Below are positions 565 to 64,000 of a stretch of DNA of 64,000 nt, piece by piece. Source of the DNA: Gordius sp. MW1 (lineage: Eukaryota; Nematomorpha; Gordioida; Gordea; Gordiidae); the NCBI GenBank assembly GCA_964036665.1, contig OZ038530.1, forward strand, positions 20,730,001-20,794,000. Reading direction: 5' to 3'. The first letter of the stretch is position 1; the number at the start of each line of letters is the position of its first letter. Under the pieces are notes generated by a model. It searched no databases. It saw only the letters and a program-made list of their open reading frames with translations, and had not been told where the DNA came from. Both the position numbers and the translations under genes were made by a program.

Positions 565-814
565 TTGGGTTCAAAATGTCACAGTCCAAAATGTCACACG
601 AATATCACGAAAAATTAAATCTCAAATGGGGAGGGAATTTGATGTACATCTAATCCTAACCCAACCCCTAACCTAAAACGCTGACCTAAAACACTACCCA
701 ATGGAAATTATGCGCTTGCGCAATGAGTAATTGCGAATCTCACGATCGTGAGATTCGCGAATCTCACGATGTGGCTTAGTTGCATTTTGGACTGTGACAT
801 TTTAAAACGATACC
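565..814. mobile_element. Foldback element 1 with telomere-like core
   Basis: The arms are inverted repeats sharing AAAATGTCACAGTCCAAAAT (near 573-593 and 784-803). The left arm contains the word AAAATGTCAC twice. Near-identical 11-bp direct repeats, GAGGAGACGTC (554-564) and GAGGAGACATC (815-825), flank it and look like a target duplication. The core (about 612-700) begins CAAATGGGGAGGGAATTTGA and runs into degenerate CCTAACC/CCTAAAAC repeats. A perfect 26-bp palindrome centred on CACGATCGTG lies near 735-762. The same core occurs in the element at 18445-18660. No coding capacity is visible, so it is probably non-autonomous. Confidence 0.75.
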
Positions 815-10917: not shown

Positions 10918-11239
10918 ACTCATTGTCTTCAGATTCATTATTAGAATTAATAAAGGATTGTAATTTAAAATCTTTGTTTAAAACTAAAAGTTTGCCGCAA
11001 TTTTGGATACAAATTCGTGCAGAATATCATCCATTATTTTCAGCAGCAATTCAAAATTTGCTGCCTTTCGCTAGTACATATTTGTGTGAAAAAGGCTTCT
11101 CATCTCAACTATGGTGGATATAAAAACTAAAAAACGCAATCGATTGCGACTAGATTCCTGCATGAGGATAGCATTACAATCAATTAAACCAAGAATTAAC
11201 AAATTGGCTGAAGATGTTCAGCAGCAGAAATCTCATTAA
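10918..11239 (+). pseudogene. hAT transposase C-terminal remnant (ZBED/SCAND3-like dimerisation region)
   Basis: The frame from 10923 reads FWIQIRAEYHPLFSAAIQN then LLPFASTYLCEKGFSS, the start of the conserved C-terminal dimerisation domain of hAT transposases. After GFSS a +1 frame change is needed at about 11105. The next frame then reads MVDIKTKKRNRLRLD, SCMRIALQSIKPRINKLAED and ends at a stop near 11239. The fold is as expected for animal ZBED5/SCAND3-type hAT proteins. The N-terminal BED finger and the catalytic DDE residues are absent. Confidence 0.88.
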
Positions 11240-11483
11240 ATATATTTCCGAATGCATATATTTTTTATTTTAAACATTGTTTTTATGTTTAATTATGAAG
11301 TTTTTATGTTATTATTATTTCATTATCTATTTAAATTTTAAATAGATAATGAAATAATAAAGTTGTGTTTTATGTTTATTATAAAATAAAATAATAGAAA
11401 ATCAATATATTATAGATAATATAACAAATATCAATGGTAGTAACAGGAAAAATATATTAATTTAATTTAAAAATAAAAAAAAA

Positions 11484-18435: not shown

Positions 18436-18444
18436 GATTAAAAC

Positions 18445-18660
18445 GAATCGGGGTCAAAGTAGCAGAATGATGAAAAAGTAGCAGAAAAATATTTTTTTAG
18501 ATTATCAATATATTAAAATTAATTCTCAAATGGGGAGGGAATTTGATGTGCAAATAACCCTAACCTTAACCTAAAACGCCAACCTAAAACCCTAACCCTC
18601 CTGGCCAATCTTGATCTGATCAATTTGGCTGCTTTTTTTCTGCTACTTTGACCGGGTGCC
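18445..18660. mobile_element. Foldback element 2, same core as element 1
   Basis: The left end reads GGGGTCAAAGTAGCAGAATG and has a second AAAAGTAGCAGAAA 16 bp further in. The right end read inward gives CCCGGTCAAAGTAGCAG. The direct repeat GATTAAAAC flanks it at 18436-18444 and 18661-18669. The core (about 18523-18605) shares CAAATGGGGAGGGAATTTGA and CCTAACC/CCTAAAACGC with the element at 565-814. The arms, however, carry a different sequence built on the same plan. Confidence 0.75.
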
Positions 18661-18669
18661 GATTAAAAC

Positions 18670-30100: not shown

Positions 30101-33100
30101 AATTCAACTTTATGGCACAAAGTTTCAATGCTGCACGTATTAATTTAATTTAAAACATGTTTATGATTAAATCATCTATTTTTCATTAGAAAATAAGGAA
30201 TTTTGTAGTTTGGAATAAACATGGGCCTAGTCAGGATTGGATTTTAAAGGGGGACATTAATGATTTAGGGAGGAGCATTAGTTGTTTTAGTCATATCATA
30301 ATTATATTAAATTTTGAAGAATTGTTAGATTTAGAAGGGGGCAGCCGCCCCTCCCTGCCACCCCTCGCTACGCCCATGGGAATAAAGGTTGTTTTTAATT
30401 TGCTAGCCCATAAAAATACTAATTTAACTCTTTATAAGAAAAGAACCACAATTTTATATTTAATTGTTTTCCTATGGTCGTTAACTTATGCCACAAACTT
30501 GGGAATAGCCCAGGGAGGAGCCATGGAGGGGCACCTTACCCTCCCCATAAAATCAAATTTTTTGTATTTATTTATATTTATAGAGTCAAAGCTTTTAATT
30601 TTAAAAACATATCGTTTTGCGCTTCCCTAAATCATTTTAAAAATAATTGCTTCCCTGCTATTCCAAATTTTGGCTACGCTCATGATCCTAATCAAGGAAA
30701 AAGTTAACAGCTAAATATTATCCTGATCATATTTTCTGAATGTATAGGATAAATCATTTTAAAGGGAGCTCTTTAACTTCAATAGTTTTTTTTGTCTATC
30801 AATACTAATAGGGATGATACAAATAATTCCATAATTTTTTTTTTATTTTTGACACGATCCAAAAGACTGATGATAAAAGAAAAAGCTCTCAAATTTTATA
30901 AGCATTAAGATTGAGATTTATATTTAATGTAATAATCTGTAATGATATTTCAAGCGTTTTACATAGTTTTTTAGCTAACCAACGTAAACTTTTTGAAGCA
31001 AATAAACTTTATCGAGAAATGCACTTTTATGAAAAAGGCAGATAGATGAGCTAGGTAAAACTAGATTTTTAATGACCAAACCTTATTCAAACAGATGATT
31101 TGTTCTTCCTACTACCGATTCCTAATAATAATACAAAAAAGATCTAAATTTTAAAACAAATGATTGGTAATTTATTTTTAAAATTAGGCGTATACAGGAT
31201 GCGCTATAATGGAACAGCTGATGGGGTAGAGCAGAAGGAAGAGATACTAGCAGTTTCGTACAAAGATGGTCATTGGAGCAAACCATATTTCGATTGTGGT
31301 GGAGGCAATATATGGATGATGACCTATACTATTCCTTTCTTCGGATTCAAAAATGGTGAATACTACTTTAAGTAAGATCCCATGCACTATAAGATTTTTG
31401 ATATTCCTGCACTGCCAGAAATACAACATTCATCCTTAGGCATGGGCGTAGCCAAGAGGGGGTGGCAAGGAAGGACGGCTGCCCCCCCCCCCCTCTAAAT
31501 CCAATTAACAAAATGTTCATTTTGCCCCTCCCTTAATCATTATTGCCCCCTCTAATTCCAATGCTGGCTACACCCATGTCTTTTTTTGTGATTTAAATTT
31601 AAATGTTTATTAAGTTGTAAATTATATTCTTCACTGGAATGTGTTAGATTTTGGACGTTCCAAAACTTAAAGATAATTATAAAATGTTGTTAGGCTTTAT
31701 TTTTAAAGAATAGATTCTTGAAACTTAAACTATCCCTTTAAATACGATATGAGTTGCTACGAGTGCTTTATTACACTTCAAGATAAATATTAAAGGGGAA
31801 CGAGTGGGATTGATATTGATTTGAGAAAAGTTGACATCGATCAATGCCCACAAGGTGTGAACGACACGTCCTTAAACGTCTTCGCCGGTTCCGATAAATG
31901 TCAAGAAAATTCAACAGTGGTAAACACTTTATTATAAAAATTAAAACTCCCTCCAGTTGAGTTGTCCACTACCCAAATTATAAATTGTGAGCCCAACTAT
32001 TTAGTAAACAATATTTTAATCTATGTCAACCAGCGACCAGAAAAGCCCGGCTTGCTGCCCGACCTAACTGGCCAATGGGCTGGGCGGGGAAAATGCCGTA
32101 AATTTAGATTTTTGCACTGGCCTGGACTGGCATCATAACAAGGGGAACCGGTCAAAGGAGCTCATCAGAACTCATCAGAAAAGGAGCACACTGCTCAGGA
32201 TGAATTTAACAAATTGTCTTAGCACATAATATTTTATATTAACATGTCCTAGTGATATCATAACAAGTAAATATATGGGTTAGGGTAAGTATTAGGGCCA
32301 GGGTAAGGGTTATGGTTAGGGTGTGGGTTATAATAACAAAGTGTGCTCCTTTCCTGATGAGCTCTGATGTGCTCCTTTGACCCCCACTCACAACAAGATT
32401 AGGGAAGTCGGGCTTAATGACTTTTTTACATAGAATTTAATATTCTGTTTTCGTGTACTATTTTGTCACCCTTTTATTTGATTGGATTAAAAATTTATTA
32501 ATCATAGTTCCTATCCAAATAATCTCAATTTCAAAAGGTTCCAAAAATTAACGAAATAACTATTAAAATTAAAAAAAACATCATTTCAGTTCGGGCAGTT
32601 CGGGCAGCTCTAATGGTTCGGGCATGGCCGGGCGAACACTTGGGGCCCCAGGCGGGCAATTTAGTTATAAAATCGGACCGGGCTAGGTTTAGGCGAAAAA
32701 ATTAAACAAATCTGGCCTTAGATGAAAACACAAATAATCAAAAAATTATTTTAAAATATGTTACAAATGAATGACTTAATTAATAAAAAAAATTAAATTA
32801 TTTTAAACCTCATCTTACAAGAAAGAGAAATAATTTATAGATTACTGCCTTCCGAATGCGCCGCTTTATCGTGTTGGTTTTGATTTATTTAACCTGCTCG
32901 ACCTGATTAGTTTGTTAAAAAGCCTTTGTTTTTTTTTAAATTGCAAAAGAGCAAAGGCAAAAAATATTAATATTAACTTTTTGGTTAGCAAGTTGATTTT
33001 AAAACATTTCTTATTAATGGTTTTTAGGACAAAGCTTACTAAATTTTGTATCACAATCATTATTAACAAGGTATTCCACTTGCTTTTTATTTAGTTAACA

Positions 33101-36100
33101 ACTAGGGGTTTACATAATTCGATTAACTTCAGAGATTTGGCAGATTTTAAGCCTATTTCAGATGATAATAATTTAGATCTTTAATTTTACTCCATATGTC
33201 TTTATCTAAAATTAAAATTATATTTTTAAATAAAAAAAATTAATAATGGACAGAACTGTATTATGATACAAATGGCATACTGACTATTGGTAGGTCCTTA
33301 TTTTTTTTGTTTGCTAACCCTAATCGAAAAATAAATTTAGAAACTTGCATAAAGAAAGGTCGAGATTTATTTTATCAGAAAAGCTGTCATACGAAGGGTT
33401 TTTAAAGCACTTTTAAAGGTCAATTTATTGTGAATTAATTAGGGGCCCTTATTAGAAACATTTAGATATATTTCAATTTATAATCAACGTATGTCTCATT
33501 ACATCATAGAGTATATTACCTCGAATTTTCGTGTAGATTTGTTAAATTTAGTCATAAAGGCTTGGATGGAGACAGAAAGAGAAATCTGCTCACCACAGCC
33601 TAAATCCAATTATTTTTTGAAATATATTATGGATTCAATCATGGATAAAAGTTTAAATCTTATCATCTTTCAGCCTTTTTGTCGCAATCATTGATGCATT
33701 ATACTTTTTTTGACAAAAAATAATCTACTTTATATAATAGCCAAAACTGTTATTATTGAAAATTACAATTTAAAATAATATTTTTTTTCTAATATAGTGC
33801 GTGCCAGTCGAAGGTCAAGGATTCAGAAGGGGTTCTTACTTGTGCAAATGCAAAAAAGGTTTCTACTTCCCTTACAAAGACAACAAGAACAAATATTTCG
33901 TAGGAACTGAAATGGAAGTTGAATATGAAAAATATGTTAAGGTAATAAACTTACAAATTAATGATAATTATGGCAATAATTATTTTTTGGAAAAAAGTAT
34001 TTTCAAGGGGTATCTGTGAGATAATTCTCACACCCACTGTAATAAACATTGGGTCACTAGGATCTCACATATACACAAATAGATCAAGGGTTAGTAAAAA
34101 AAACCTAAAAGCACGTTGATAGATGAAATTTTGAAACTTTAAAAACATAGTAGGTATGACTATTTTGGTCTCAAATTCCAGCAGAGTTAATACTTTTCTA
34201 AAAAAAATTATTCTTAAAATAACTCAGAGTAAGGGCCAGAGACCATAAACGCACTCGATTTTGTTAGATATGTAATATTTAATAAAACTTTCTTTAACAA
34301 TAAGAATTATAGACATTTGGTTTTAACGTTTAGATTACGAATTACTTAGAGTTAGAATCAGTTGTATTGGCTTATTTTATTCTCTGTTTCTGAATATACA
34401 CTGATCATGGGCGTGGCCAGGGGGGGGGGCGGCTTTTATGTTTTACCCCTCCATAATTGAACTTTTAAACGTTTTGCCCCCCCCCCCTCTAATCCAAAAC
34501 CTAGTTACGCCCATGACTGTGATTCTTAATTAACAATTTTTAACAAAATTTGCTCGGATAGCCCTTTAAAAGTAACTTCTTCAATGTTAACAAAAAATTT
34601 ATATTAAGGAAGTTCTCCCTCTCCACTATATATTATAATATTTTTTTTTCTTAATCAATATAAACGTATATCTTTAAATGATTTTGTATGGTACAGGCTA
34701 AAATATATTAAATTAATGAGCAGGCATAGAGCCATAGATCGAAATTGTATTGTATTTTACAATTTCCATGGTGATTTATTGCTTAATATAAAAAAATTGG
34801 TGCCCTATCAACTCGCCGAAAATCATCTCGTCGAATTTAATGTCCCTTGGTTAAATAAGGTCGCCTAAGATCAAATTATTTCCCCATTCAACCATTAACA
34901 AAATGTCACAGATGAATTCGGCGAGATGGTTTTCGGCAAGTTGACGGGCCACCAATAAATTCTATGGGGTCGTGTGTAATTGAGGTATTTAATTGGTTTA
35001 AATTGTAGGAAGAAACCAACCAATATGACGAGATGATATGTTTACCCTGCCCACCAGATTGCGAAGACTGCCAAGAATACAAGCCATGTTCTGTTATAAC
35101 CAACAAAATCTTAAGAACCATCATACTTTGCCTGCAATGTTTGGTTATGAGTCTCGTACCCGTGCTCGTTTGGTTCACTTGGACATACCGCGAAATAAAA
35201 GTACTAAGGCCTTGCCTGCTAAATTGCTTTTTATCGGCCCACGCCCAACTCGAACCTGATATATTTTTTAATATGTCCAAGCCCTATCAGGCCTTAAATT
35301 AATACCCAGACCTAAAAATTATGAATATAAAAATGGTTTTAAAAAGATTCTCTGGCTAGCTTGTTTATTAAGTGAGACCTGAGCCCGAGGCCCGATTTTT
35401 TTATTACTTTGGCTCAAAACCTTCTCGTGCTGTGCTGGGCCTCAGAAGGCCGGTGCAGAAATCTAAATTTAGCTGGACTAAATTATAAAAATATTACTTA
35501 AATTTTAACTAAAGTTTGGGCTATTCATTAATTTATCAGTTTTAATTTCTTAATAAATTAATTTTAGCAATTACTTTAAAAATCAATTTTTACATTATAA
35601 TAAACGCTATTGAGTAATTTTACTTTTATAACATACTAGGTTGTGAAAGCATCCAGTCCGACTCTTTTAATCATATTCTTAGCCGGAACGTTGTTTCTAT
35701 ATTTACCGGTAAACCACATAAAACTCATATTTAAGTTAATATGTATTGGTCAATCTTTTTGATCACTGGCAAAAATTCTTAATAAAGAAAATCTTTCTTT
35801 CTTTGCATTTATAATATTTAATATTGTAAGGTCATAGTCAGTTTTCCCGAACCATCTACAATTACGTGTACCTTGAAAATGTGGTTTCGAGAGTTCGGCT
35901 TTGCCATAGCCTACGGGGCTCTTCTCCTTAAAACATGGCGGTATCTATATTTCTAAAAATATTTATATTTGAGAACTGGAGATATAAATTTATATAAAAC
36001 TCATAGATTGTCAATAAGACAGCCACTTGTTGTTTAAATTCATAAGTTTTGCGTTAATTTGTTCAAGCTTTGATTAAAATTGAACTTATAATTAAGTGGT

Positions 36101-50799: not shown

Positions 50800-51650
50800 A
50801 CACCAAGATGTTTTTAATTATCGTGCAGTTTACTAAGATCTTTAATGATATGTAACGTAAAAAGGGTTTAAGAATGGTTCGGCAACTCTTGTAATAAACA
50901 GGGAATATGTCAAAGAGAGGCACTTTAACGTGGATTAACCTATACCCGGAAGTCACCAAATTTCTTTGACGCCATTTTTTGATTACTTTTCTTTTTAAGT
51001 ACGCCATCAACATCTGCTATAAATTCCTTAGCTCTGTCTGAAGATCTCCGGACCATTCATCGTTCAATCAAGCTCAGCACCCAGGGGGAGAAAACAACAT
51101 TTATAGATACAAAATCATTTAACAATAAATCATTATCGTACCTTCACCCCATCGCAAACCCCTCCTTTCGTAAAACCACTTATACTTTACAAAAATCCAA
51201 ATTTACAAATAATATATTCGAGTTTACAAAAAGGAGGTTATTCCAAAATTATTAATACTGTATTCAAATTTACAAAAAGGGGGTTTTACAAAAAGAGGGT
51301 TTTGCGATGGGGTATAAGTATAATAATGTTTTTTTGTTATATAATTTGTGTTTATAGTTGTCGTTTCCTCCCCCTGTGTGGTGGGCTTGATTGAACGAAA
51401 TGGTCGTGAGATCTTCAGGTATGGCTAAGGAATTGATAGCAGATGTTAATGGCGTACATAAAAAGAAAAAGTAATTGAAAATGGCGTCAAAGAAATTTGG
51501 CCATTTCCGCGTACAGGTTAATCCGCGGTAAAAGTGCCTCTCTTTGACATAAAGGTTGCAAAACCATACTTAAACCCTTAATGAGTTACATATCATCCCA
51601 AAGATCTTAGCATGCCGGACTATGATAAAAAACATCTTGGTATACCGAAA
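50800..51650. mobile_element. Large foldback element: ~370-bp imperfect inverted arms
   Basis: The left arm (about 50805-51170) and right arm (about 51300-51648) are reverse complements over most of their length. Shared blocks include ACACCAAGATGTTTTTA versus AAAACATCTTGGT at the outer ends, AAAGAGAGGCACTTT versus GTGCCTCTCTTTG, TTTCTTTGACGCCATTTT versus AATGGCGTCAAAGAAATTTG, and GTTCAATCAAGC versus GCTTGATTGAAC. The ~130-bp centre has GTTTACAAAAAGG-type repeats. The arms differ by scattered substitutions, so the element is not recent. Confidence 0.85.
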
Positions 51651-57100: not shown

Positions 57101-60100
57101 AAGCAAAGATTATTTCTTCGCCGAATGCGCTAAGTTGGATGAAAAAGGTGAGTTTTTCCCCCGCTAGCTATAATAATTTTGTAACTACTTCTCAAACTTT
57201 CTTTAAGCACTATGTTATTCCTATAATAGGTTAATTACAGTGTTCGTTATTTCATTATGATAGTTGTCTTTATCATGTTTGATATGTTTTGTTTTCGTGT
57301 AAGTTTCATGTCTTGATTTGTCTCCTTATTTTTTATAACCATGTCCACTTGCCCTTTCCACGTGACACTAGGTCGTCCTCTTCCTCTCTTCCCCAATACC
57401 TCTGTGTCCAGTACTTTTCGATTTACATCAAATGTCTTCCTTCTCAGTTATTGATATACTACCTTAGTCGATTTTCGTTAATTAATAGTTATAATTTTGC
57501 TAAAATTATCTTCTAAGTTTTTACGATTTGGGTTTTAGGGTGTCATAGGAACAAAATTTTAACTTAATTTTAAAAGATTTTGTCTATTATATGGTTGATA
57601 CGTAATAGCCGTTCAAAGCGAGGTGGAAAAGGGAGTCCAAAACAATCCGTTGCTGAATCTCGACGAGTTTGAAGATGAAACACCCTATTCCGAAGTTGTT
57701 ATAATTTATTTGTAATTCTTTGCTAATATTATGAATATTTAGACTTCGTTGGGTTTTTGCTGTTATATGCATGGGCGTAGCCGAGGGGGGTTGGACAGGG
57801 ATGGGCAGCTTCCACCATCTTAATCCAAAAATTTTGTTGACATTCATTAAAATTATGACTAAAATTTCAAAAAATAATCAATTTGCCCCTCCCTAAATCG
57901 TTATTGCCCCCCCCCCCCGTCTAATTCCTATCCTGGCAACACCCGTGGTTATATGCATAGACAAATGATACTAATTAACTCGAGAGCTATTGATAAATTT
58001 AAGCAAGGGTATATATCGCCATGTTTGAAGCGTATGTCAGAAACTCGAAAAGCTTGGCCCGCTGCACGAATCTGCTCGCCCGGCCCGTCTGTCGTATATT
58101 TAGATTTTCGGGCCGGCCAAAAAGATGAGTTTCATATTGTTGAGTATTGTATATGCTAAAGGCTGATAATTCACGAATTGATGAAATTTTATGTTTTTAA
58201 TTATGAATTGTTCAGAGATTATTTCGAATACAGATATAATTTAATCCATACCTAGGATATTTGCTTGACTCCTTTACTTACAAAACCTTATAATGAATTA
58301 TTATCATTTATGTAAACCTATTGTAAATATACGAAAACGCTTTTTTCAAATGGCAAAGTGCGATAATTTGAAAACTCTTTTTAAAATAGAGCTTTTGACA
58401 AAAGAGATTAGTTAAAAGTCTCAAAGTCCCTTAAAAAATTATGGGATTTGCGTCCAGAGTTTGTTGAGGCAGTATGTCCTAGATTATATAGACTGCTCGT
58501 GCCTTATGTTTCGTACCATTAAATTCACCATTTTGAATTTATCTATCTCCCATGTATTTCTGCAATGTACCCCATTATTAAAACAGAGATAGCGAATTAA
58601 CCTTCCCCTTTAGTTAATAGAATTCGTAATAATGTTTTAAAATGCTGTTTTTAGTGTTTAACTAGTTCAATTTTTTTAAATTACTTTCTGAAAACACTTT
58701 AATAACCAATCTATATGTCCTTCCCTTATTTGTGCACATTTCAAAATGGCGGAAAGATGGTACACTTATTTAACGTTGATGAGCAGTCTATTTAGTCCAT
58801 GGTAGTAGTAGAATTTTTTTAATTTTGTTCAACTTTCAGTACAGAAATTTGCACTGTGACATAATTATATATGGAGCTTACTTGAGTCTTTAATTAAACC
58901 ACTATTTTTTTACTTAAAGTTCATTTTTCATTGCATTTTAGCCAATTTTCGATCTCTACTCCGACATTGGCAATCAAAATTTATCGCTCATTCAAAGGTT
59001 CAATCAACATTCTATCCTGTTATCACAAGCCACATTCCCCAAAAATAAGTCATCGCAATTATCGAGAATTCTGCAAAAGAACGGCCAACAAATAACCGAA
59101 ACCGCTAGCGCCAGTGAAAAATTTGAAATTCCCGACAAAAAGGTATTTCACCTTATTACCTAAAAACTTAGTTGTCACTTTAAAATTACATATAAAAATA
59201 GTAGCATGTTAGTGTTGTAAAAACGGCTGGGTTTTGCTTGGTACCAAGCAAAACCCAGCCGTTTTTACAACACTAGTAGCATGGAATCCTATAATAAAAC
59301 GTAGTTTTTTTTACAAAATCGCTTGATACTTTTTTATTTAAATGTTGCCAGTACAGTATATTTAAATTTAAAAGTAGTTTAAACTCAAGGAACTAGATAC
59401 TTTTTTATATTTTTTTCTGAGATAAATAATAAAATTGCAACTTTTTTTAAATCCGACAAATTTTTCTAAAAACTACATAATTTAGTTGATCATCTCTTCA
59501 AATATCTAATTTAATGACAATCTTAAATATCTCAAGAAAATTGGAATTAAGTGTTTTACCCTGATTTTCACTTATTTCATTCATTTTTATAAAATACGTG
59601 TATTTTTTAATTAAGAAAAAAATTATAAATATCGGGCTTTGATTTACAAGGTAATTTTGCAAGATCGTTTACACAACGAATACATGGATTTGGAAGGTCC
59701 AGCCACAGTTTCCACTAGCCACACCCAACAAAATGACTCGTCCGATGGTCCTGCTAACACTTTCAAGCTGAATAAACCTTCAAATTTTTTTCAAGGGCCC
59801 ACAAATCTAGATTTTCAAGTAAGAACCTATAATTCAAAAACCTGCTAAAGCTGTAAAATTTTACATGGATTTAAGGTTAGGCGAAGGGTAAATACTGTAA
59901 CTTGGGTGTTAGTGTTATCGTAACCGAGTTCTTTAACAATTTTTTTCGGTGCCAAATATCGTGTTAGATTTATAATACTTATTGGGGGTCGGATTGGGTG
60001 CATTAGTCTGCACGAGTGGTCCGTAAAAATTCTTTGGTTCGGGTTGAAACTTTTTTTTGCACTTTCGGGTCGGGTTTGGGTTGAAAAAAGTGAATTGCAG

Positions 60101-61599: not shown

Positions 61600-63750
61600 G
61601 CTCACCGGAAGAAAATCCGCTCTCCTACGTCTCGTCGTGCAGGGGGGTAACAGATTATATCTGGCTAAAGGAGAAGCGGTCCGTGTCACTTAGAAAGACA
61701 AAAAAAAAAAAGTTTAAAGTGACACGGCTCATACCTCTCTATATGTGGATTCGTTTATATGGAAAGGTTTCAAAAGAATGGTCCTTTAGAACTCACCCTC
61801 TAAGGAAAACGACTCAAACCCCTGTGATCTGGGGTCAGAATAGGATCTCCGCTCCTCGCGAATCGTACAAACCGACGAAGAGGTTGGCGCCAGGAAGGGC
61901 ATCCGGCTGTAAAACCTGCTCCAATCTCCCCCTATCTCTAAAGGCTACACCCTAAGGGTTGCAACCTGGAACATAGGGAGCATGACGGGAAGAGCGGGCG
62001 AGGTAGTGGAAGCACTCAATCGGAGAAGGATAGATATATGCTGCATACAGGAGACAAGGTGGAAAGGAGAGGGTGCTAGGATGATGGGAGCCATTGGTGC
62101 GCGGTATAAATTCTACTGGCAAGGGCACAAGGATGGAAAAGCTGGTATAGGAATACTTGTCGCTGAGAAATGGGTGGACAAAGTTATCGATGTCAAGCGA
62201 TGGAATGACCGGATTATAGTTATAAAGATGGCGATGGGAGAATGGCTATTCAACGTTATATCGGCCTACGCCCCTCAAGTAGGAAGAAGCGATGAAGAAA
62301 AAGACATTTTCTGGGATCGTCTGATGGAAATTACTTCCCACCCTCAAGAATCAATTATTTTAGGCGGGGATCTAAACGGACATGTTGGCGCGAATATCGA
62401 TGGTTATGAAGGTGTCCATGGTGGTCACAGCTACGGAACCAGGAACACGGAGGGGGAACGCATTCTGGATTTGGGGACGCTACTCAGATGGTTATATGCA
62501 ATACTTTCTTCAAGAAAGAAGACAGGAAGCTTATAACCTATGAATCGGGCACCCTCAAAAGTACTGTCGATTATATGATGGTCAAAAAATCGGACAGATG
62601 TATGGTGAAAAACGTCAAGGTTGTCCCTGGGGAAGAATGCGTGACACAACACCGTCTTATTTTTGGGGATCTCGTAATGAAGGGGCTTATAAATCCAAAG
62701 AAACGCTATATCCCGAGACTCAAGGTGTGGTGTTTGAAAGATGATACTCAAAAGAGGGATTTTGCCGAAGCACTTGATGGAACCTCAGTGGAGATGGCGA
62801 AGAACGTAAACGACAAATGGACGGCTATGAAGAATGCTTGGCTTGACACAACATCGCGCGTTTGTGGTTGGACAAAGGGGCCCCCAAGACATAAGGAAAC
62901 TTGGTGGTGGAACTCTGAGGCGGCTAAAGCTATCGAAGATAAAAGGCGTTGCTATAAAGTCTGGCATGAATCTCAACAAAGGTGCGATAAGGTTACGTAT
63001 CAAGAGGCTAAAAGAATTGCAAGAAGGACCGTCTCCAGAATAAAGGAAACAAAAAGATGCGAGTTTGCTCTACGCCTTGACTCAGAGGAAGGGAAGAAAA
63101 ACATGTTTCGTGTAGCCAAACAAATGGCGAAAGAACGACTCGATGTTGTGGCGACTAAATGCGTTAAAACGCCGGCGGGTAACATCATCTCCCATGGCGA
63201 TGGAATCAAAAAAGTTTGGAAAGACTATATGAAACGACTCTTAAACGAAGAGAATACCTGGGACAATGACGTTGTTTGTGATAAAGTTGAGGGACCCTGC
63301 TGCTGGATTGGGACTGACGAAATTCAGCGTGCCATAAAGAAAACGAAACAAGGTAAAGCGGCAGGCCCAACAGGAATAGTGGCGGAGATGGTAAAAGCTT
63401 CTGGACATTTGGGAGTCGTTTGGCTTACACAGCTGTGTAATGCCATAATTCAGGAAGGGACTATACCTAGCGATTGGAAAAAGAGCGTTATTCTACCAAT
63501 CTACAAAGGAAAAGGCGACCCACTTGACTGCGGATCATATCGGGCTATTAAGCTCCTCGACCAAACTATGAAAGTTATAGAGAGGGTGCTCGAGAAAAGA
63601 ATCCGGGAACAAACGAACATCGACGCTATTCAGTTCGGATTTAAACCAGGGAAAGGGACCACCGATGCCATCTTTATAGTACGACAGATGCAAGAAAAAC
63701 ACCAAGCAAAAGGGAAAAGACTATACTACGCCTTCGTAGACCTAGATTTT
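61600..63750 (+). mobile_element. APE-type LINE, 5' part intact, cut inside the reverse transcriptase
   Basis: The untranslated leader includes a stem (CCGTGTCACTT at 61681 pairing with AAGTGACACGG at 61717-61727) around an A run, and GCGCCAGGAAGGGCATCCGG, a leader motif common in such elements. The coding region follows from 61943. The element stops matching at about 63749, immediately after FVDL of RT motif A; the following 250 bp are unrelated AT-rich DNA. Confidence 0.9.
61943..63748 (+). pseudogene. LINE polyprotein: apurinic endonuclease plus truncated reverse transcriptase
   Basis: The first frame starts LRVATWNIGSMTGRAGEVVE and has CCIQETRWKG (catalytic Glu), VISAYAPQVG and GGDLNGHVG (Asp/Asn), ending near 62535. 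A one-base loss at about 62475 moves the frame; the second frame continues GDATQMVICNTFFKKED, STVDYMMVKKSD and TQHRLI (His). Then comes WWWNSEAAKAIEDKRRCYKV, GKAAGPTGIVAEMVK (RT motif 0), LPIYKGKGDPLDCGSYRAIK (motif 1), FGFKPGKGTTDAIFIVRQM (motif 2) and YYAFVDLD (motif A start). The YxDD box is absent. The order endonuclease-RT and the motifs fit RTE/CR1-like animal LINEs; the clade is not settled. Confidence 0.92.
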
Positions 63751-64000
63751 CTATTCTTAAATAATAGGAATAGATACGGGGTTTAATTAAACTTTTAGAA
63801 TTTTATTTATCAGGAACTATTGCTGTTAAGTCCTTTAATTTGGTGGTCCTTCCCGGAAAGGGAAGGATATTAACTACAAAATTATATCTACTTTATTTCT
63901 ATCAGAAAGTTATAGAATGAATGAGTAAAAGATCATCTACTACATTAATCGATAATGATAATTAATAATATCTCTTGTCAAGCGAGGTATTCATATATTG
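63750..64000. other. No gene seen; unknown sequence joined to the broken LINE
   Basis: AT-rich with one GGTCCTTCCCGGAAAGGGAA inverted stretch near 63845. It is probably either the start of another insertion or GTF2H1 intron. The window end prevents a decision. Confidence 0.4.

Follow-up and report, generated by a model that had tools for sequence, protein, structure and literature searches.

Mobile elements with a shared telomere-like core under different arms in a Gordius genome, most likely Mutator-like MITEs

MITEs are normally grouped by their ends, the ends being taken as kept and the middle as variable. In the part of the published account available to us, Muta1 of Aedes aegypti is a FLYWCH-MULE that has target site duplications (TSDs) of 8 or 9 bp and subterminal repeats and that transposes in yeast, and the FLYWCH MULEs of Aedes have many short non-autonomous derivatives (PMC5225508). 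The CMITEs of the coral Acropora, according to the accessible portion of their description, form families with different terminal inverted repeats (TIRs) and one conserved interior, the origin of which is left unexplained (PMC2872659). For Mutator-like elements (MULEs), excerpts of a further source give a TSD range of 8-11 bp (PMC6446971). In the genome of Gordius sp. MW1 we find the reverse of the usual view of MITEs, in that the ends vary around a conserved middle. Our best explanation of the whole, to which we give a probability of about 0.8, is that these are MULE MITEs between which a core has been transferred by nested insertion and deletion, with a telomeric tract riding along.

The window, the whole stretch of DNA that was analysed, comprises 64,000 nucleotides of contig OZ038530.1. 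An initial annotation had placed three foldback elements in it, and all three were found there with edges (562-814, 18445-18660 and 32143-32389) that agree to within a few bases. Element 1, a MULE-type MITE of family A, lies on the forward strand (253 bp) between exact 8 bp copies of the TSD GAGGAGAC at 554-561 and 815-822. The flanking repeat GAGGAGACRTC, as first described, reaches three bases into the element, whose left end starts GTC. The left arm of element 1 (570-593, forward, 24 nt) matches the right arm (783-806, reverse) in inverted form at 96% and carries the word CAAAATGTCACA twice at a spacing of 15 nt; its shared core region (613-699, forward) has CAAATGGGGAGGGAATTTGATGT at 623-645 and then a degenerate CCTAACC stretch. 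Element 2, a MULE-type MITE of family B (forward, 216 bp), lies between exact 9 bp copies of GATTAAAAC at 18436-18444 and 18661-18669. Its 16 nt left arm (18452-18467, forward) has a 100% inverted match at 18638-18653, the word AAAGTAGCAGAA occurs twice at a spacing of 19 nt, and the shared core CAAATGGGGAGGGAATTTGATGT at 18527-18549 (forward) is followed by a CCTAACC stretch to about 18607. Element 3, a MULE-type MITE of family 3 (forward, 247 bp), is flanked by 8 bp that differ by one mismatch, ATAACAAG on the left (32135-32142) and ACAACAAG on the right (32390-32397). Its 43 nt left arm (32150-32192, forward) has an inverted match of 93% at 32340-32382, and AAAGGAGC and CTCATCAGAA each occur twice, at spacings of 26 and 10 nt. 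The duplicated arm words first noticed were thus recovered in all three elements.

Elements 1 and 2 have 89 aligned columns in common at 83% identity, which bears out the earlier observation that they share a core despite different arms. The common plan proposed for all three elements holds as well, and it extends to a telomere-like centre in element 3 (32277-32331, forward, GGGTTA type); this centre has no homology to the core of the other two beyond telomere likeness. The elements are shorter than about 500 bp and non-coding (longest stop-free stretches 37, 46 and 49 aa in elements 1, 2 and 3), have TIRs with arms of 16-43 nt together with TSDs, and occur in high copy, as MITEs do. No known RNA family was detected in the window at the gathering threshold.

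Other features of the window lie apart from these elements. A large imperfect palindrome at 50924-51532, with arms of 134, 54 and 66 nt at 82-83%, looks like another foldback. A perfect inverted repeat of 33 nt without spacer (TAGTGTTGTAAAAACGGCTGGGTTTTGCTTGGT) stands at 59210-59275, and similar sequence is found beside elements in three of the fetched loci (L054, L064 and L066) and also in L082. Two open frames that overlap, at 61982-63786, resemble the endonuclease and the reverse transcriptase found in LINE-type elements.

A first look across the genome gave 1378 candidates for element 1, 1517 for element 2 and 321 for element 3, and in the best 40 per query the match spans nearly the whole query. 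Among the 40 highest-ranking copies of family A, identity is 98-100% across some 250 bp, and family A has therefore probably moved recently. From the fetched loci we delimited 71 elements of six end types at 71 distinct places, with lengths of 178-383 bp, leaving aside copies below 150 bp and those in which an end departs by more than four edits (for example L042, which lacks a left end). An exact TSD of 8-9 bp flanks 52 of the 71, nine more have one mismatch, and by the same test none was detectable in 10. When, within a family, the left flank of one copy was set against the right flanks of the others, only 2 of 1136 comparisons matched; these two probably come from L012 and L013, which lie within a duplicated segment with the same flanks and so are not independent insertions. 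The suggestion that the flanking repeats mark real insertions is well supported by these counts. Of the families that carry the shared core, A, B, B', C and F have TSDs, and so does one D copy of the two read; lengths of 8 bp predominate in B, B', 3 and F. The duplications of the delimited copies fall within the MULE range of 8-11 bp; they varied, at 8-9 bp, and are not the TTAA of piggyBac.

Empty sites, which the initial annotation proposed as a check, were sought by joining the flanks of 61 elements minus one duplication and comparing them with the fetched sequence and the window. Eleven of the 61 have an uninterrupted match elsewhere without the element. The best is L006 against L058 (97.9% over 233 columns), and the empty site of L035 is in the window itself, at 11116-11290 (93.8% over 177). 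All 11 are paralogous sites inside other repeats, not alleles.

With up to two mismatches allowed, the core CAAATGGGGAGGGAATTTGATGT occurs at 944 places in the genome and its reversed control at none. We read the first 30 exact copies on contig C1, out of the 944, and grouped them by eye into eight arm types (A 9, A1 1, B 4, B' 6, C 4, D 2, E 1 and F 3). All 30 lie within elements that have arms, the right arm of L058 being the one that we could not recognise. What the families have in common extends from about -8 to +84 (to near +51 in B and +76 in A), and A1, C, F and D share a longer part, to about +160 to +181. Over -8 to +84 the core is 97.5% identical within families and 94.9% between them (indels uncounted), a conservation that is inflated because the copies were picked by an exact 23-nt match. 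Outside the core, the arms of A, C, D, E and F cannot be aligned, except for A-type remnants inside C and F. What had been proposed as a single undescribed family is instead several MITE families, most likely of the known MULE superfamily, with element 3 in a family of its own.

The edges of the core bear on the idea that it is a short unit, mobile in its own right or reverse-transcribed, that independently entered several MITEs. The left edge falls at -8 to -14 of the CAAATGG word and the right edge varies from +50 to +181 between arm lineages, a pattern that, read on the other strand, resembles a fixed 3' end with variable 5' truncation. However, this comparison involves only three independent left edges, no target duplication was noticed by eye around the core, and the copies that we read sit in armed elements, with the reservation for L058 given above. 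We therefore give a separately mobile core very little credence.

Family C points to another origin for the change of arms. In all four copies read (L056, L057, L062 and L071), the last letters of the C arm are AAAAGATAAAC, or AGAGAAAC in L071, and GAATTGGGTTCAAAATGCC, the left end of an A-like (A1-type) element, follows directly. The right A arm is absent from these copies, and the C right arm closes the element. Given this direct junction, the 'rewritten' arms are best explained by nested insertion and subsequent deletion, and we infer that an A-type left terminus lies inside C. Family F keeps a shortened A1 left arm inside F ends, and family A corresponds to A1 with a deletion of about 112 bp. 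A1 was read in one copy, L051, for which a clear TSD could not be made out, and in B, B', D and E no such junction is left at the arm exchange. Hence the trace of nested insertion is seen in C and likely in F, and the same route would apply by extension to B, B', D and E. The initial annotation had imagined arms 'exchanged or rewritten' around a conserved core; different arms around one core are indeed what we find, with nested insertion and deletion, on the evidence of family C, probably taking the place of rewriting.

It might be argued instead that one ancestral core MITE had its arms diversified in place, by point change under different MULE lineages, while the core was kept as a cis enhancer, as proposed for the coral CMITEs. 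Arm types with known ends do share one plan (an outer stretch and mostly a paired word), the words of B, B' and 3 are similar (GGTCAAAGTAGCAG, GGTCAAAATAGCAG and GGTCAAAGGAGC), and core identity between families is near that within them. Yet point change does not predict that C keeps the old A end whole inside a new arm, the arms of A, C, D, E and F are unalignable outside the core apart from the remnants in C and F, and the similarity of the core identities owes something to the selection of copies by 23 exact nucleotides. Divergence in place thus appears improbable to us.

Under nested insertion, the sequence of events would be as follows. MULE transposases, acting in trans, would recognise the paired arm words and cut and paste the short non-coding elements, a staggered cut of 8-9 bp producing the target duplications. 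A core-bearing MITE would insert into another MULE MITE, and a later deletion would remove one end of the guest, after which the host arms would mobilise the guest core. The telomere-like stretch of the centre would be a telomeric repeat tract that rides along. The intermediate of this course would be an A-type MITE with both ends, with AGATAAAC duplicated, inside a C element.

The ends of the families are built alike, with an outer stretch, not the same on the left as on the right, and then an A-rich word in two copies. To the words of the window elements, CAAAATGTCACA in A (15 nt apart), AAAGTAGCAGAA in B (19 nt) and AAAGGAGC in 3 (26 nt), family C adds AAGATAAA (15 nt); the duplicated word is weaker in family F and went undetected by an exact test in L080 and in the L081 foldback described below. 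The arms consist of paired words, whereas type 2 foldbacks such as Muta1 have arms composed of an array of short tandem repeats, and these paired words may well be the sites that a transposase recognises. Left ends read GAATC for B, for B' and for L055 (a D copy), GATTC for C and for F, and GTCTT for A. Family 3 ends in GGGAAC and GAGTG, the family C MITEs in GATTC and CGTTTC.

When the genome was scanned with the MULE profile of Pfam, the program counted 128 matches, and we read four of these loci (L079-L082). L079 contains a 7.1 kb element with a MULE match, a FLYWCH domain (27.8 bits), an exact 9 bp TSD and two copies of CACAATGCCAAT; L080 contains a 5.1 kb element with a MULE match and an exact 9 bp TSD. 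Both have a GAATC left end and a CGCTTC right end, and in both the MULE domain runs from the CGCTTC end toward the GAATC end. An automatic end search ranked the L079 ends first and those of L080 fifth, the latter being picked for their fit to the plan. Tandem repeats lie between the CGCTTC end and the MULE domain in both loci (L079 5839-8454, units of 110-164 bp; L080 5769-6488, 115 bp) and resemble those of minisatellite-bearing MULEs. L081 and L082 were ruled out as MULE partners, as their ends do not match.

The end pattern of family C was found at 118 places, and among the 100 listed the end pairs are mostly about 290-360 bp apart. One listed pair spans 5.3 kb (C3:10602684 to 10607959) and encloses, by coordinates only, a MULE match at C3:10604712-10604903 that scores 26.9 bits, below the curated cut-off of 27.6. 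The MULE domain of this element runs from the right-arm word to the left-arm word, like that of L079 and L080. About 0.01 MULE matches would be expected by chance within facing C pairs of 1-6 kb (about 20 kb in sum), a post hoc estimate that omits one facing pair 90 kb apart. The families are most likely MITEs of the MULE superfamily, an assignment that is drawn from coordinates for family C and from the end plan for the other families; we infer that transposases of the MULE type, like those of C, also move the window families. The autonomous partner called for at the outset has thus a candidate in family C, by coordinates and a weak match, and none was found for A, B or 3. For these three, end patterns that depart early from the MITEs gave 2, 4, 0 and 1 places and no pair, in a search blind to partners that have longer stretches in common with the MITEs. 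Between F ends lie two long spans, of 3.0 and 4.1 kb (C5:3498703-3501716 and C5:3578092-3582227), with no listed MULE match inside.

One may ask whether another superfamily with 8-9 bp duplications (Merlin, hAT, P or KDZ) moves the elements, as the dominance of 8 bp duplications in B, B', 3 and F would allow. Merlin, the one of the four that was searched, was rejected, its transposase PF12762 (DDE_Tnp_IS1595) having no match in the genome, and the MULE match between family C ends also speaks against another superfamily, for which we see only a slim chance.

Further arrangements of these sequences were seen in the genome. Five spans of 2.33 kb with C-like ends, one mismatch at each end, stand among the listed matches (C1:14278498, 15999646 and 27061413, C2:20981005 and C3:9291705) and are probably one internal-deletion family. 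MULE matches also occur in pairs of opposite orientation whose members lie 2-19 kb apart and have scores that are the same or close (C7:6519378+/6524241-, C3:21984316-/21990013+, C1:3787309-/3792158+ and others), as if they were long palindromic elements or segmental inversions. Inverted pairs in which both members are F left ends lie 13-14 kb apart at C1:22248819+/22263242- and C4:7107129+/7120105-. The assembly also includes a contig of 14.8 kb on which what look like cob and nad1 stand in opposite orientation.

The host telomere is of the TTAGGG type. Arrays of this repeat stand at four of the six contig ends read (C1 start, C8 start, C2 end and C4 end); the C8 end and the C4 start are not TTAGGG arrays. 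The centres of all three elements, described initially as degenerate TTAGGG/CCTAACC, have telomere scores above those of all 1000 shuffles (34 against a maximum of 30 in element 1, the least of the three; 43 against 28 in element 2; 63 against 33 in element 3). In a comparison with 500 shuffles, the element 3 centre, along with the core of each of two related copies, likewise scored above all of them. Telomere-like centres therefore recur and match the telomere of the host. Common descent of the element 3 centre with the core was considered and rejected, its score being 63 for the telomere repeat and at most 28 for the core.

Mere low-complexity drift toward the telomere repeat is doubtful, though it has some weight. 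Clusters of at least five telomere hexamers per 60 nt occur in the window in element 2 (13 hexamers), element 3 (13), element 1 (6) and at 33266-33370 (5, with a single CTAACCCTAA), and 20 shuffled windows contain 0-3 such clusters each (mean 0.55), so by this count the cluster in element 1 says little by itself; its score of 34 is also near the shuffled maximum. In the other fetched loci, 79 of 87 telomere-like clusters are inside known elements, as expected, since those loci were fetched for them. The eight outside comprise one foldback centre and seven clusters without long arms, around three of which there are matches of only 11-16 nt; these seven suit drift, and, at one in eight, the clusters outside known elements do not show foldback centres to be enriched in general. 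The one foldback (L081, 6429-6749) has an 8 bp TSD GCTTATAG, 90 nt arms of another type and again a telomere-like centre. Against drift, then, stand this further element, the shuffles that all three window centres exceed, and the identity of the repeat with that of the host telomere.

A bolder reading holds that the core is a telomerase repair scar, left at a MULE excision or aborted gap repair and giving rise to a new non-autonomous element. Telomerase would fill the break with telomeric repeats, and the fixed AAATCTCAAATGGGGAGGGAATTTGATGTGCAT side may have been copied from part of the telomerase RNA. If so, the AAATCTCAAATGGGGAGGG side of the core would match that RNA next to its template, element 3 and the element in L081 would each have arisen on its own, and telomerase would be a maker of MITEs. 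We regard this as a long shot; nevertheless, with telomere-like centres under three sets of arms (those of the core families, of family 3 and of the L081 element), a possible role of telomerase in the birth of MITEs becomes testable.

Collectively, we favor transfer of the core by nested insertion, for which the family C junction, with a guest MITE inside a host MITE, is the likely route. If this route is general, a non-coding core can switch transposase and outlive its original partner, and classing MITEs by ends alone would hide such families. A search of the literature that covered it in part, by titles and abstract openings, found no report of a telomere-like core or centre in MULE MITEs.

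Several known systems share parts of this picture. Vertebrate TERC-ITS loci, in the sections of that report at hand, likewise have telomeric-like repeats that adjoin unique sequence and were inserted at a break in a single step, but they are individual repair scars rather than the core of a mobile element, and no role of transposons in their spread was found there (PMC8537989). The Tm1 Mutator/Foldback elements of root-knot nematodes, again from a partial view of the source, resemble ours in their TSDs of 8-10 bp (45 of 53 complete elements), composite TIRs, MITE-like members and Phantom-type FLYWCH/MULE transposase; unlike ours, they have terminal motifs common to their members and, in some, a histone hairpin, and the text available mentions no telomere-like core (PMC3169594). 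With the Muta1 group, as far as the accessible text describes it, our elements have in common TSDs of 8 or 9 bp without apparent site preference, short direct repeats beside the ends, a transposase with FLYWCH and MULE domains, and many short derivatives. Muta1 derivatives keep the TIR and vary in the interior, whereas here the interior is kept and the arms vary, and the Muta1 arms are an array of nine, in contrast to the pairs of words seen here (PMC5225508).

The coral CMITEs come near in another respect, one core under different ends, and in the available part of that work a new coral element, CMITE-IN, was made by MITE insertion, as we propose here. They differ in being of piggyBac type, with TTAA duplications and a length of about 100 bp, and the portion at hand describes nothing telomere-like in them; it also leaves the source of the shared core open (PMC2872659). 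A conserved interior under variable ends is therefore not unique to these elements, the coral CMITEs, as that portion presents them, being the precedent (PMC2872659). Here a core is shared in what is most likely another superfamily, with a visible trace of how this came about.
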